The position numbers were made by a program, and so were the translations under genes. Shown piece by piece: positions 22,613 to 28,231 of a stretch of 43,959 nt of DNA. Location of the stretch: positions 1-43,959 of the forward strand of contig JAFGWK010000185.1 in NCBI GenBank assembly GCA_016937195.1. Direction: 5' to 3'. The stretch's first letter is position 1. Each line of letters starts with the position of its first letter. Origin of the DNA: Paracoccaceae bacterium (lineage in GTDB: Bacteria; Pseudomonadota; Alphaproteobacteria; Rhodobacterales; Rhodobacteraceae). A model generated the notes under the pieces. It saw nothing but the letters and a program-made list of their open reading frames with translations, made no database searches and was not told the origin of the DNA.

Positions 22613-23827
22613 TCAGGCGATGATCTTGGGATCATCCCCCATATCGAGACGCGGGAAAACGGTGCTTTCCAGAAGGCCTTTTTCAAAGCCGAACATGCCC
22701 CGCATCGCCCAGGCGGCATAGGCGCGTACGTCGGCGGTCGGCATCAGGTCGCGTTGTTCGAACAGGGCGTGATCGGCCAGACCGGGCCAGTGGCCATAGA
22801 CGCGCCCGCCGCGAATGGCGCCGCCCGCCATGATCAGCGCGCCACCGGTGCCGTGATCGGTGCCCGCGGTGCCGTTTTCGCGCGCGGTGCGGCCGAACTC
22901 GGTCATCGCGAGCACCGTGGTTTTGCCCCAGTCGCGCCCCAGCCCGGATTTCAGCGCAAGGATCGCGCCTGACAGATCGCTTAGCCGCCCGGCCAACACG
23001 TTGCGCTGGTTGCGATGGGTGTCCCAGCCGCCAATCGAGAAGGTGGCAATGCGGGTATCCTCGCGCAGCCGACGCGCCGCAAAAGTCGCCAGTTGCGCTG
23101 CCTGCCCCTTGATCGCAGGGCGGGTCATGCCATTTCGGGCTGCGTCTTTTTCGACCTCAAGGCGCGCGGAAATGTCGATCGCTTCTTGGGCGGCTGCGTG
23201 AAACAGCGGGTCGTCTTCGTAGATGCGTTCCAGCAGGCGCTGGCTTTGATCGCTCAGGCGCAGGTGCGTTTTTGGGGCCCAGCTCATCGAGGGGGCAGAA
23301 CCTTCGATCACCTTCATTTCGTCGCGCCCGACCGCGTAGGCGGTGTCGGATTTCAGATCGGGCATCGCCTGTATCATCCGGTTCAGCCAGCCATCGCGCA
23401 CCTGTGGTTGAGGCACGTCCAGCCCGGTTCCAGCCTCAAGGATGTCCTGCCCGTCGAAATGGCTGCGCTTGTCACGATAGGGCGTTGCAACCGCATGGGC
23501 AAAGCCCAGCTCGCCCGCTTTCCAAAGCGGCATCAGATCGGCCATCGCGGGGTGGAGCGCGTAGAAATCATTCAGCGCGGGGCCGGTTTGACCGTCCGTC
23601 AGGCTGGCGTGGCGGTAGCTGGCGTAATCAGGATCGCCAATCGGGCGCACCACATCCAGCCCGTCCATCGCGCCGCGCAAGATGATCACGACAAGGCGCT
23701 CATCTCCGGGGGCGGAGGCAAAGGTCACGGGGCTGAGCAGTGGCCAAGCCGCAGCCGAACACCCGATCAGCGAAGCAGAGCGCAAGAACAGACGGCGCGA
23801 GAGCGGGCGGGCAGGTTTCTGTGTCAT
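22613..23827 (-). CDS. DUF1501 domain-containing protein (Tat-like signal)
   Basis: SRRLFLRSASLIGCSAAAWPLLSP; ERLVVIILRGAMDGLDVVRP; TEFGRTARENGTAGTDHGTGGALIMAGG. Confidence 0.92.
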   Translation of the reverse strand: MTQKPARPLSRRLFLRSASLIGCSAAAWPLLSPVTFASAPGDERLVVIILRGAMDGLDVVRPIGDPDYASYRHASLTDGQTGPALNDFYALHPAMADLMPLWKAGELGFAHAVATPYRDKRSHFDGQDILEAGTGLDVPQPQVRDGWLNRMIQAMPDLKSDTAYAVGRDEMKVIEGSAPSMSWAPKTHLRLSDQSQRLLERIYEDDPLFHAAAQEAIDISARLEVEKDAARNGMTRPAIKGQAAQLATFAARRLREDTRIATFSIGGWDTHRNQRNVLAGRLSDLSGAILALKSGLGRDWGKTTVLAMTEFGRTARENGTAGTDHGTGGALIMAGGAIRGGRVYGHWPGLADHALFEQRDLMPTADVRAYAAWAMRGMFGFEKGLLESTVFPRLDMGDDPKIIA

Positions 23828-23838
23828 AGCGAGCCCCC

Positions 23839-25236
23839 TTAGCGGCGGTTGTAATCGGCAGAGGCAAGGATCAGACCGATCCCCTCGCGTTTGCTTTCGG
23901 CGCGTGCGGCGGCTTGGATCAGCGTAGGGCTGGCAGCATCACCCAAGGCGCTGTGGACGAAATCTCGTGGATCGGGCAGGTAGCGCTCATACAGCGCGGC
24001 TATCCGCATTGCCCAACTGATCCGCGTGGCCAGTGCTTGCGGCGTGATCCACGCGCTGGCGTCTTCGGCCCAGCCGTTGGGGCCAAGCGCCTTGTGATAG
24101 GGTTGACCCATCGCGCGCAGCGGGGCGACGATCCATGAGCGGGTCTTCTTCTCATCGAGGTCAGCGATCATGTTGGCGGGCGGGGCGATGGCACGCAGAG
24201 ACGCGGCCATGAAATCCCAAGGCTGGCGCACTTTGCCTCCAAGCGGCCCCCAAGCGGCGGGGTGCTCAAGCATCGCCGCGTAAGTGGCACGCAGGTCGCT
24301 GTCATGGGCGAGATAGGCGCTGGCGATGTGGGTGACCAAATCGGGATCGGGCTGATCGGCCACGAAATGCACCGCCAGTTTATGCGCCAGATGATGCGCT
24401 GTCGCGGGGTTGAGAGCGATGTCATCAAGGGCTGCGTAGATGTCAGACAGCTTGGCCGGGGTCTTGCCGCCATAGTGCTGTCCCAGTACCAATTCGGCCC
24501 CCGGCTGCGCCCAGTCGGTATGAAAGACAAAGCCTTGTTCGGCGTTGAACCCCAGCCCGGTCAGCAGCTTGGCGAATTGGCGCACGTCCTCTTGGGTGTA
24601 GGGCGCGGCAACGCCCAAAGTGTGCAGCTCCAACACTTCGCGGCCTAGGTTCTCGTTCAGCCCGGCATTCTTGCGTTTCTTGGCATAGGCGCTTTGAGGC
24701 CCGACAGAGCGGGTCTGATCAAGATACAGCAACATCGCCGGATGGGTCACCGCAGCGCGCAACATTTGCGCGAATGTGCCCGTCAGATGGGGGCGAATCG
24801 CCTCTTTTGCAAAAGCGTCTGGGGCGGTTGCGGTCACGCCGGTCTTTCCGATCACGGTAAAGTGATTGCACCAAAAATACTGCAACCTCTCGCGCAATCC
24901 CTGCGGCGAAAGGCTGGCGCGTGCAAGCTGTGCGCGCAGACCGACAAGCATCTGATCATTGACGCGTTTGCGTGTCGCTTTGATGCGTTTCTGGGCACTC
25001 TCATCGCCATCGCGCACGGCCTTGCGCGCCGCCCGCATGTCGCTCATTTGCTGGCGCATAAATTCTGTGCCGCTCAGGGGCCAGCGCAATGCTGCGGTAT
25101 CGGGCGCGTCAAGCTGGGCAAGCAGAGCCTGCGTATCGGTTGGGGAGGATTGATCTGGGCTAAGCCCATAGCCATAGCGGATCGCCGCGATTGTAGAAAC
25201 GTCTTTCGTGCCGGCCATTCCAGGCACCCCTTCCAA
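23839..25236 (-). CDS. DUF1800 domain-containing protein
   Basis: IRYGYGLSPDQ...RERLQYFWCNHFTV...NLGREVLELHTLGV...YTQEDVRQFAKLLTG. Confidence 0.92.
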   Translation of the reverse strand: MEGVPGMAGTKDVSTIAAIRYGYGLSPDQSSPTDTQALLAQLDAPDTAALRWPLSGTEFMRQQMSDMRAARKAVRDGDESAQKRIKATRKRVNDQMLVGLRAQLARASLSPQGLRERLQYFWCNHFTVIGKTGVTATAPDAFAKEAIRPHLTGTFAQMLRAAVTHPAMLLYLDQTRSVGPQSAYAKKRKNAGLNENLGREVLELHTLGVAAPYTQEDVRQFAKLLTGLGFNAEQGFVFHTDWAQPGAELVLGQHYGGKTPAKLSDIYAALDDIALNPATAHHLAHKLAVHFVADQPDPDLVTHIASAYLAHDSDLRATYAAMLEHPAAWGPLGGKVRQPWDFMAASLRAIAPPANMIADLDEKKTRSWIVAPLRAMGQPYHKALGPNGWAEDASAWITPQALATRISWAMRIAALYERYLPDPRDFVHSALGDAASPTLIQAAARAESKREGIGLILASADYNRR

Positions 25237-25448: not shown

Positions 25449-25964
25449 ATGCGAGAGGCTCCAAAACCATTTTGGTCACCGCTCAGCGCGGGAATTGTGC
25501 TGGGTTTGGCTTTGCTTTTGACGTTTGTGATTACCGGCCACGGGCTGGGCGCATCCGGGTTTGTCACGCGATTCGCAGCGCAAGCCAATGAATGGGTCGC
25601 ACCGACCGCGACTGCGGAAAACGCCTATTTCGGGCCGTTCATGAAGGCGGGCAATCCGCTGATGTCATGGATCACCTGGGAAGTCGTGGGCGTGCTGATC
25701 GGCGCGTTTCTGGGGGCCAAAGGGGCCGGACGGATCTCGGTCAAGGTGGAACGTGGTCCGTCAACCTCTAGCGGCAACCGGCTGGTCTACGCGCTGATCG
25801 GCGGCGCGCTGGTGGGCTTTGGTGCGCGTCTGGCGCGAGGCTGTACCTCGGGTGTGGGCCTGTCGGGCGGGGCAACGCTTGCCGTGGCAGGTTTCGTGTT
25901 CCTGATCGGATTTTTCGCGGCGGGCTTTGCCGTGTCCTTTCTTATGCGGAGGGTTTGGCAATGA
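25449..25964 (+). CDS. YeeE/YedE (TsuA-like) family protein, first half
   Basis: GGALVGFGARLARGCTSGVGLSGGATLAVAGFVFLIGFFAAGF. Confidence 0.9.
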   Translation: MREAPKPFWSPLSAGIVLGLALLLTFVITGHGLGASGFVTRFAAQANEWVAPTATAENAYFGPFMKAGNPLMSWITWEVVGVLIGAFLGAKGAGRISVKVERGPSTSSGNRLVYALIGGALVGFGARLARGCTSGVGLSGGATLAVAGFVFLIGFFAAGFAVSFLMRRVWQ

Positions 25965-26605
25965 GCATTCCGTTCTATGATGGCGGCGTGGCCGCAGGTC
26001 TGCTGTCGGGTGTGTTGTTTGGCTACGCACTTGAGGCGGCCGGTTTCGGCAGCCCGCGCAAGCTGACGGCGCAGTTTTCGCTACGCGATTTCTCGGTGTT
26101 CAAGGTGATGTTCACCGCCGTTCTGGTCTCGGCAATCGGGCTCTATATTCTGCGCTCGATGGGGATGATGGCAGGCAATGCGGTCTTCATTCCAACGCTG
26201 TTCTTCTGGGCGATCCTTGCGGGTGGCCTGCTGATCGGGGCCGGGTTCGCATTGGGCGGCTATTGTCCGGGCACGTCGGTTGTCGGCGTGGCTTCAGGGC
26301 GTATCGACGCGGTCGTTTTCGGCGTCGGCATGGTGCTGGGCACTTCGGCTTTCGCTTGGGTTTATGAGCCGCTGATGGGCTTTTACATGGCCGGACAAGG
26401 CCCGGCGGCGCAAACCTTGCCGCAGCTTTTCGGCCTGCCTGAATGGGTGGTCCTGCTCGTGCTTGTCATTCTTGCGGCAGTCGGTTTCCGCCTTGGCACG
26501 ATGATGGAGCGTGCGCGCGGGGGGCCGTTGACGGCCGAAGAGGTCTGCGCGCCCGATGACGAGGCCGATGATCTGACCATGACCGCAGCCACGCGTCAGG
26601 CGTGA
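25961..26605 (+). CDS. YeeE/YedE (TsuA-like) family protein, second half
   Basis: GVLFGYALEAAGFGSPRKLTAQF...GGLLIGAGFALGGYCPGTSVVGVASGRIDA; overlaps the first half. Confidence 0.9.
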   Translation: MSIPFYDGGVAAGLLSGVLFGYALEAAGFGSPRKLTAQFSLRDFSVFKVMFTAVLVSAIGLYILRSMGMMAGNAVFIPTLFFWAILAGGLLIGAGFALGGYCPGTSVVGVASGRIDAVVFGVGMVLGTSAFAWVYEPLMGFYMAGQGPAAQTLPQLFGLPEWVVLLVLVILAAVGFRLGTMMERARGGPLTAEEVCAPDDEADDLTMTAATRQA

Positions 26606-26649
26606 TCTATGGTCAACGTATTTGACGATTTTTGAGGGAGGAAAGACTG

Positions 26650-27399
26650 ATGAAACTGAAAAAGACCAAGACTCGTAAAAGCCTGCTGCGCGCAGCGATG
26701 GTGCCGGTCACGGCGCTGGCGATGAGTGCTGCTGTGCCGATGACTGCTTCGGCGCAGGCAACCAACCCCTGTGCCCCCGCCGCAGCGGTCAATCCTTGCG
26801 CCCCGGCGGCAGCGCCGAGCAATCCTTGCGCACCGGGTGCGGCGGCAGCCAACCCTTGTGCGCCGGGTGCAGCGGCCGCAAAAGCCGCCGATGCGGCCCC
26901 GATGGCCAAAGGTCCCTTTGACACCACGGTCAAGGCCACTCAGGCGCCCTATGGCAACGAGATGCCCAATATCGTGGTGAACTACCTGCGCGCCTCGCCC
27001 TATATTGGCACGGGCGGCTTTATCGACCCCACGGGCATCCCAATGCTGAAAATGTTGGGCTTCAAGACGGTCGTCAGCCTGCTTAAACCCGATGAGGGCG
27101 CGCCCAATGAGGGGGAATTGGTGAAAAAGGCCGGGATGAACTACATCCACATCGCCGTCCCCACCAAAGCGCCGACCGCGGATCAAGTTGCGGAATTTGC
27201 CAAGATTGCTGATGATCCCGCGAACTACCCGATCCTTCTGCATTGCGAAAGCTCCAACCGTGTGGGCGCGATGTGGGCGCTGTATCGTGCCTCCAAGGGC
27301 GTACCCGCCGAAATCGCCGTCGAAGAGGGACGTCAGGTTGGTCTCAAGACCTCACGCGAGGCACAGGTGCGCAAAGATCTGGGCTTGCCGCCGCTCTGA
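26650..27399 (+). CDS. Secreted protein with NPCAP repeats and a phosphatase-like/sulfurtransferase-like domain (CX4R loop)
   Basis: Signal peptide, four NPCAP repeats, then FIDPTGIPMLKMLGFKTVVSLLKPDEG...YIHIAVPTKAPT...YPILLHCESSNRVGAMWALYR. Confidence 0.82.
   Translation: MKLKKTKTRKSLLRAAMVPVTALAMSAAVPMTASAQATNPCAPAAAVNPCAPAAAPSNPCAPGAAAANPCAPGAAAAKAADAAPMAKGPFDTTVKATQAPYGNEMPNIVVNYLRASPYIGTGGFIDPTGIPMLKMLGFKTVVSLLKPDEGAPNEGELVKKAGMNYIHIAVPTKAPTADQVAEFAKIADDPANYPILLHCESSNRVGAMWALYRASKGVPAEIAVEEGRQVGLKTSREAQVRKDLGLPPL
26764..26865 (+). repeat. Four in-frame copies of the 15-nt NPCAP unit
   Basis: AACCCCTGTGCCCCC (26764), AATCCTTGCGCCCCG (26791), AATCCTTGCGCACCG (26821), AACCCTTGTGCGCCG (26851); all encode NPCAP with synonymous differences. 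Confidence 0.95.
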
Positions 27400-27420: not shown

Positions 27421-27450
27421 ACGGGACCGGTCGGTTGGCCGGTCCCGTTT
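27421..27450 (+). terminator. Rho-independent terminator
   Basis: acgggaccgg tcggttgg ccggtcccgt ttgt: 10-bp stem. Confidence 0.75.
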
Positions 27451-27484: not shown

Positions 27485-28231
27485 ATGGGTCATATTGCAA
27501 AAGGCGCTTCAAAAATCGCTCTGCCGGCGTTTAACAAACTGCCTCGTGCGCGGCTTGAAGAGATGCATGATGCCGCTGAAACGGTGATCGAATGCGAAAC
27601 CGTTTTGCGCAAATCTGGGATGAGTGTGGTCTCGGAAGTGCTGCGCGATCAAGGCACGTTCACCACATGGGAGCGTTATCCCAAGGGCGACATCTTTGAT
27701 CCCGATACCCATTGCCAGTATTTCTATCATGCCCATGCCGCTGAAGAGATGATCACGGGCGAGAACGGCCATTTTCATCTGTTTGTGCGCCCTGATGCGT
27801 TGGCTCCGGGCCTTGCGCCTTGGGACTTGCCGGGGGCGAAAATCCCCGAAGATCCCGCTGCGCGGTTTGCCCATATCGGCGCGATCAGTGTGAATGCCAA
27901 GGGCACCCCGTTGCGTATTTTCACCACCAATCGCTGGGTCACGGATGAGACCTTTTATCGCGCGAACGATGTGATCGGATTGCTTGATCATTTCACGATT
28001 GAACTGGCGCATCCCAACTGGGCGGTGAACCTGTGGCTGAGTGCGATGGTCGCGCTTTATCGTCCGCAATTTGAGGCGCTGTTGCGCGCGCGCGATGCCC
28101 GGATCGAGGCGTGGCTTGAGGCGCATCCCGACAGTGCAGTGCTGGAAGATCGCGGCTTGCAAAACACCTCGGAAGTGGTGATCGACCCGCATTGGCAGAT
28201 CACCGCGATTGAGGCTGAACTCGACCTTTAG
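27485..28231 (+). CDS. DUF6969-like conserved hypothetical protein
   Basis: LPRARLEEMHDAAETVIECETVLRKSG...WERYPKGDIFDPDTHCQYFYHAH; family name from memory. Confidence 0.75.
   Translation: MGHIAKGASKIALPAFNKLPRARLEEMHDAAETVIECETVLRKSGMSVVSEVLRDQGTFTTWERYPKGDIFDPDTHCQYFYHAHAAEEMITGENGHFHLFVRPDALAPGLAPWDLPGAKIPEDPAARFAHIGAISVNAKGTPLRIFTTNRWVTDETFYRANDVIGLLDHFTIELAHPNWAVNLWLSAMVALYRPQFEALLRARDARIEAWLEAHPDSAVLEDRGLQNTSEVVIDPHWQITAIEAELDL

Follow-up and report, generated by a model that had tools for sequence, protein, structure and literature searches.

A secreted DUF442-like protein linked to a split YeeE/YedE transporter marks a candidate cassette for periplasmic sulfane-sulfur import

We were curious to see what a secreted protein with a phosphatase-like body might be doing beside a transporter that is encoded in two halves. 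The case comes from a window of 43,959 nucleotides (the whole stretch of DNA that was analyzed), in which the genes of interest all lie on the forward strand. Y1 (25449–25964) and Y2 (25961–26605) encode the transporter, and their reading frames overlap by ATGA; D (26650–27399), which encodes the secreted protein, starts 44 bases past the Y2 stop. The Y1 start is best supported at 25449, and the open reading frames and coordinates given for the three genes in a preliminary description of the locus were borne out. That description also had D ending in a terminator. A terminator-like hairpin with a 10-pair stem does follow D (27421–27448), with a comparable stem-loop at the same intergenic site in other Thioclava, but the cassette goes on beyond it: a fourth gene, DUF6969 (27485–28231; PF22308, 265 bits), had been missed. 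This gene is kept adjacent to D, whose end it overlaps in several Marinobacter loci. The D protein is 94% identical to that of an uncultured Thioclava bin and 73%–81% identical to those of six further Thioclava genomes, and by these identities the source of the window is a Thioclava-like genome. A DUF1501 gene and a DUF1800 gene adjoin each other at 22613–25236 on the reverse strand, divergent from the cassette.

A profile search identified Y1 and Y2 as the two halves of a Sulf_transp (PF04143) transporter. Y1 covers the C-terminal half (profile positions 174–308) and Y2 the N-terminal half (positions 4–147, with a match to DUF6691). The cysteine within ARGCTSG of Y1 (Cys132) aligns with Cys293 of the solved YeeE (6leo/8k1r), and the one within GGYCPG of Y2 (Cys102) aligns with Cys91; each is invariant among 24 relatives, and the two YeeE positions have been described as indispensable (PMC11582611). 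The proposal of two overlapping YeeE/YedE half-proteins with conserved Cys motifs was thus confirmed. The family name also stood, but the label TsuA that came with it did not: against the TsuA models NF052577 and NF041049 (cut-offs 400 and 645 bits), Y1 scored 44.6 and 25.2 bits and Y2 scored 16.3 and 15.9 bits. These cut-offs and the split architecture ruled out a plain TsuA or SoxT identity. Judged by sequence, the halves are instead of the PmpA/PmpB type, known from Serratia as separate YeeE/YedE halves with one conserved Cys apiece (PMC11582611); Y1 and Y2 are likewise one half each, with the Cys293 and Cys91 equivalents, but they are longer (171 and 214 aa vs. about 130). The same genome encodes a canonical PmpAB-like pair at another site, from which Y1 and Y2 are distant (31%–34% over 61–71 residues). 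With the TsuA/TsuB and SoxT importers the pair shares the YeeE family, a putative Cys relay, and partner proteins that handle sulfur; TsuB, however, works on the cytoplasmic side (PMC11073785), whereas the partner linked here, D, appears to be exported, and the transporter is split.

D begins with a signal-like N-terminus (26650–26760; residues 1–37, with a hydrophobic segment at 11–29 and an AxA-type end, ASAQA, all judged by inspection), in place of whose end the Marinobacter relatives have a lipobox. Four NPCAP repeats follow (26761–26874), each with one cysteine (41, 50, 60, and 70), at the only locus with this repeat pattern found in the genome. The one further cysteine, Cys199, lies in the core domain (26896–27396), within the loop HCESSNR (27241–27261), which also holds Arg204. 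The core was modeled by AlphaFold2 as a PTP-like fold (pLDDT 92.6). Its best fold match, and also its closest solved sequence, is 3gxg, a putative phosphatase of the DUF442 family from Shewanella putrefaciens (E 2.9e-9), which differs from D in being only 22% identical over the fold alignment. A secreted ORF with a dual-specificity-phosphatase-like body, as first described, is therefore what we found, with secretion judged by inspection.

Could D simply be a periplasmic dual-specificity phosphatase that adjoins a transporter by happenstance? Its fold would suit that role, since TpbA, Tk-PTP, and other PTPs are among the top fold matches, and the Pfam names matched include DSP-PTPase. The loop points elsewhere. 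It had been read as C-x4-R and not the C-x5-R of true PTPs, and this held: the loop is ungapped in an alignment of 35 relatives, ruling out a normal C-x5-R loop with a gap, and the spacing is that of DUF442 proteins (HCLANYR in 3gxg, YCRTGTR in 2f46, and YCRSGTR in a second protein of the same genome), whereas TpbA shows C-x5-R. In the alignment, moreover, the D family has no conserved acidic residue at the PTP general-acid site, where the segment reads IxVxTxAPTxxQV.

The earlier domain placement was right that this is not a true phosphatase loop, but D belongs near a known family, that of DUF442 and Blh. It scored above the cut-offs of PF04273 (DUF442; 34.5 bits, cut-off 26.1) and PF22741, yet below that of the sulfurtransferase model TIGR01244 (50.1 bits, cut-off 85.85), and is therefore best called a divergent, secreted branch. 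It resembles the DUF442 sulfurtransferases (TIGR01244; Blh of the bigR operon; Rhd442 of Hyphomicrobium) in fold, in C-x4-R spacing, and in its association with sulfur genes. Blh is a proven thiosulfate sulfurtransferase (PMC5823870), and a gene for Rhd442 has a YeeE-like soxT gene nearby (PMC11582611). Those proteins occur in the cytoplasm or as fusions with a dioxygenase, whereas D appears to be exported, carries NPC repeats, and lacks the glycine of the canonical loop (C-R-[ST]-G-T-R): the D family reads C-x-S-x-N-R (C-x-[ST]-x-N-R across relatives with an intact loop), and 3gxg is likewise Gly-less. The Blh architecture was absent, as D has no ETHE1-type dioxygenase domain (NF040641; 28.8 bits, cut-off 625). 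Elsewhere in the same genome (contig C154, locus L116, 4329–7462), the canonical cytoplasmic DUF442 gene with the YCRSGTR loop adjoins genes for an ETHE1-type dioxygenase and a SulP protein, by sequence a split Blh-like set.

We proceeded to ask how tightly D is linked to the transporter, using 43 relatives found from D alone (gene calls in these loci followed simple ORF rules, and the counts are without kinship correction). Both YeeE halves adjoin D in 33 of the 43, so the proposed link with YeeE genes is conserved; it spans Alpha- and Gammaproteobacteria and takes two gene orders, Y1-Y2-D or D-Y1-Y2. Chance or artifact was ruled out, as the linkage recurs across many genera and in both orders. 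The Cys and Arg of the loop are retained in every YeeE-linked member with a complete frame. The NPC repeat is no fixed part of the link, because D-Y1-Y2 loci of Kiloniellaceae and their allies do without it. Ten relatives lack the pair: one is at a contig end, five retain the loop Cys, and four have lost it, these being the only losses in the family. The four (L074, L077, L078, and L079) read HG for HC with GAMWALYR kept, and are likely to be non-catalytic versions in another context, to judge from their sequences.

The five unlinked relatives that retain the Cys come from Vreelandella and Halovibrio, and adjoin a persulfide dioxygenase at two loci and a BigR-like ArsR repressor at the other three; these neighbors were assigned by gene cluster, and a profile confirmed one example of each kind. 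Such surroundings in place of YeeE, as in Vreelandella, would fit a D that guards rather than feeds, as a periplasmic scavenger of polysulfide or persulfide whose NPC cysteines act as a sink while Y1 and Y2 move their product separately; the multiplication of cysteines by the repeats would fit too. On the other hand, the transporter pair is by far the commonest neighbor of D, and NPC-less D genes retain it. We regard a guarding role as unlikely, though it is the alternative we take most seriously.

A search seeded with Y1 across 399 genomes of the phylum showed which other partners the pair can have. The pair was found in seven other genomes, in two of which Y2 carries a fused rhodanese-like domain ending in GGCA or GGGCG (L121, 223–1488, reverse strand; L122, 2030–3331, forward strand), a tail reminiscent in sequence of the SoxY arm. 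The fused domain lacks the usual rhodanese loop Cys and so may only bind. Multiheme cytochrome genes lie upstream in L121 and L127. Three related genomes have Y1 and Y2, then the gene for a short secreted NPC peptide, then DUF6969, the peptide standing alone at the usual position of D (L125, 5929–6162, and the corresponding stretches of L126 and L130). The locus was followed over a longer distance in two of these three, where the next genes encode a secreted tandem rhodanese, two genes past the NPC peptide, and an ArsR regulator. One such genome has soxC, soxY, soxA, and soxB ∼2.5 kb further on, followed by a gene resembling TsuA, two short YeeE-like ones, and a gene for a cytoplasmic DUF442 protein. 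SoxB is also present in the genome of the window.

The best reason to think that D acts on sulfur is that unrelated sulfurtransferase-type folds occupy its slot. Together with the sox, persulfide-dioxygenase, and BigR-like contexts, these rhodanese replacements favor sulfur transfer over phosphatase activity, in support of the original suggestion that D is of the sulfurtransferase type. Given the same replacements and contexts, along with its loop, a phosphatase seems to us very improbable.

The fourth gene goes with the repeats rather than with the enzyme or the transporter. DUF6969 comes after D in 22 of the 43 relatives, as it does in the window; when the window is counted with the D family, it is adjacent at 23 of 29 NPC-bearing loci vs. 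none of 15 NPC-less loci, and the genomes of the six exceptions all carry DUF6969 elsewhere. When loci of other alphaproteobacteria were chosen by the NPC DNA pattern alone, DUF6969 was nearby in eight out of 19. It was present in 49 of 53 alphaproteobacterial genomes with the pattern, compared with 90 of 385 overall (Fisher p about 4e-32, uncorrected for kinship). The 13 genomes with an NPC-less D fitted the expectation without exception: NPC repeats occurred elsewhere in all eight with DUF6969 and in none of the five without it (chance about 1 in 1300, again uncorrected for kinship). A YeeE-specific role for DUF6969 was ruled out by this distribution, which tracks NPC. There are also 41 alphaproteobacterial genomes with DUF6969 in which the NPC pattern is absent; SPC-type repeats, seen near DUF6969 in a few of these loci with none found in others, appear to account for them only partly. 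In a DUF6969 tree, Marinobacter and alphaproteobacterial D-linked copies fell into separate clades, suggesting that the association probably arose more than once.

The DUF6969 protein looks cytoplasmic, since it lacks hydrophobic segments and, by inspection, a signal peptide, and its core holds invariant HxH and ExGHFH motifs. It had no sequence or fold match in the PDB (best E 0.6 in the fold search), and a literature search on NPC repeats and on DUF6969 found nothing relevant. A cytoplasmic partner of exported Cys repeats suggests a role in repeat maturation. We tentatively propose, as one possibility that we would not favor at present, that DUF6969 is an unrecognized enzyme of the cytoplasm, with a novel fold, which modifies the exported NPC cysteines or loads them with metal or sulfur, and that NPC is a portable, matured Cys arm used across Proteobacteria by sulfurtransferases, by proteins of the cytochrome P460 type, and by standalone peptides.

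In several alphaproteobacterial loci (L136, L139, L143, L145, L190, and others), DUF6969 forms an uncharacterized cluster with genes for two other proteins: one that is secreted and FGE-sulfatase-like (PF03781), and one in which NPC repeats are joined to a heme domain of the cytochrome P460 type. The joint occurrence of NPC and DUF6969 with such proteins, outside sulfur contexts, would suit repeats that bind a metal such as copper and are matured by DUF6969 as DUF692 does with other cysteine-rich peptides; D would then use the metal or be shielded by it, and sulfur import would be secondary. DUF692 itself was not matched among the cassette proteins, where the partner of the Cys repeat is DUF6969. 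Since D keeps its sulfurtransferase-type loop and its YeeE linkage even without NPC, we think a primary role for metal decidedly unlikely.

We therefore moderately favor a cassette that works as a module for moving sulfane sulfur from periplasm to cytoplasm, with D as a sulfurtransferase that feeds Y1 and Y2 and DUF6969 in support of the NPC cysteines. D would be exported to the periplasm, where Cys199 would accept a sulfane sulfur, donated by thiosulfate, by polysulfide, or by a carrier such as SoxYZ, to form an enzyme persulfide. This sulfur could then pass to Y1 and Y2, either by direct contact or by way of the flexible NPC cysteines as acceptors or carriers, and one Cys of each transporter half would relay it inward, a direction of transfer that we infer, as we do the enzyme activity. 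DUF6969 may be a cytoplasmic partner that NPC-repeat proteins need, most simply to mature or protect their cysteines; this processing is both the novel part of the account and the less certain one. Against this reading we count the score of D below the TIGR01244 cut-off, its missing loop glycine, the absence of the usual loop Cys from the rhodanese domain fused to Y2, and a study of Hyphomicrobium in which PmpAB showed no link with sulfur oxidation (PMC11582611).

The route by which periplasmic sulfane sulfur reaches the cytoplasm has been called unknown, with thioredoxin-like proteins suggested as presenters to YeeE-like importers (PMC11582611). The cassette offers a concrete candidate presenter, a predicted secreted sulfurtransferase that is co-inherited with a split importer and swapped for rhodanese domains in other lineages. 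As Thioclava and Marinobacter are culturable, this candidate is open to test. The coupling of DUF6969 with the Cys repeat, moreover, would give a first functional handle on both.
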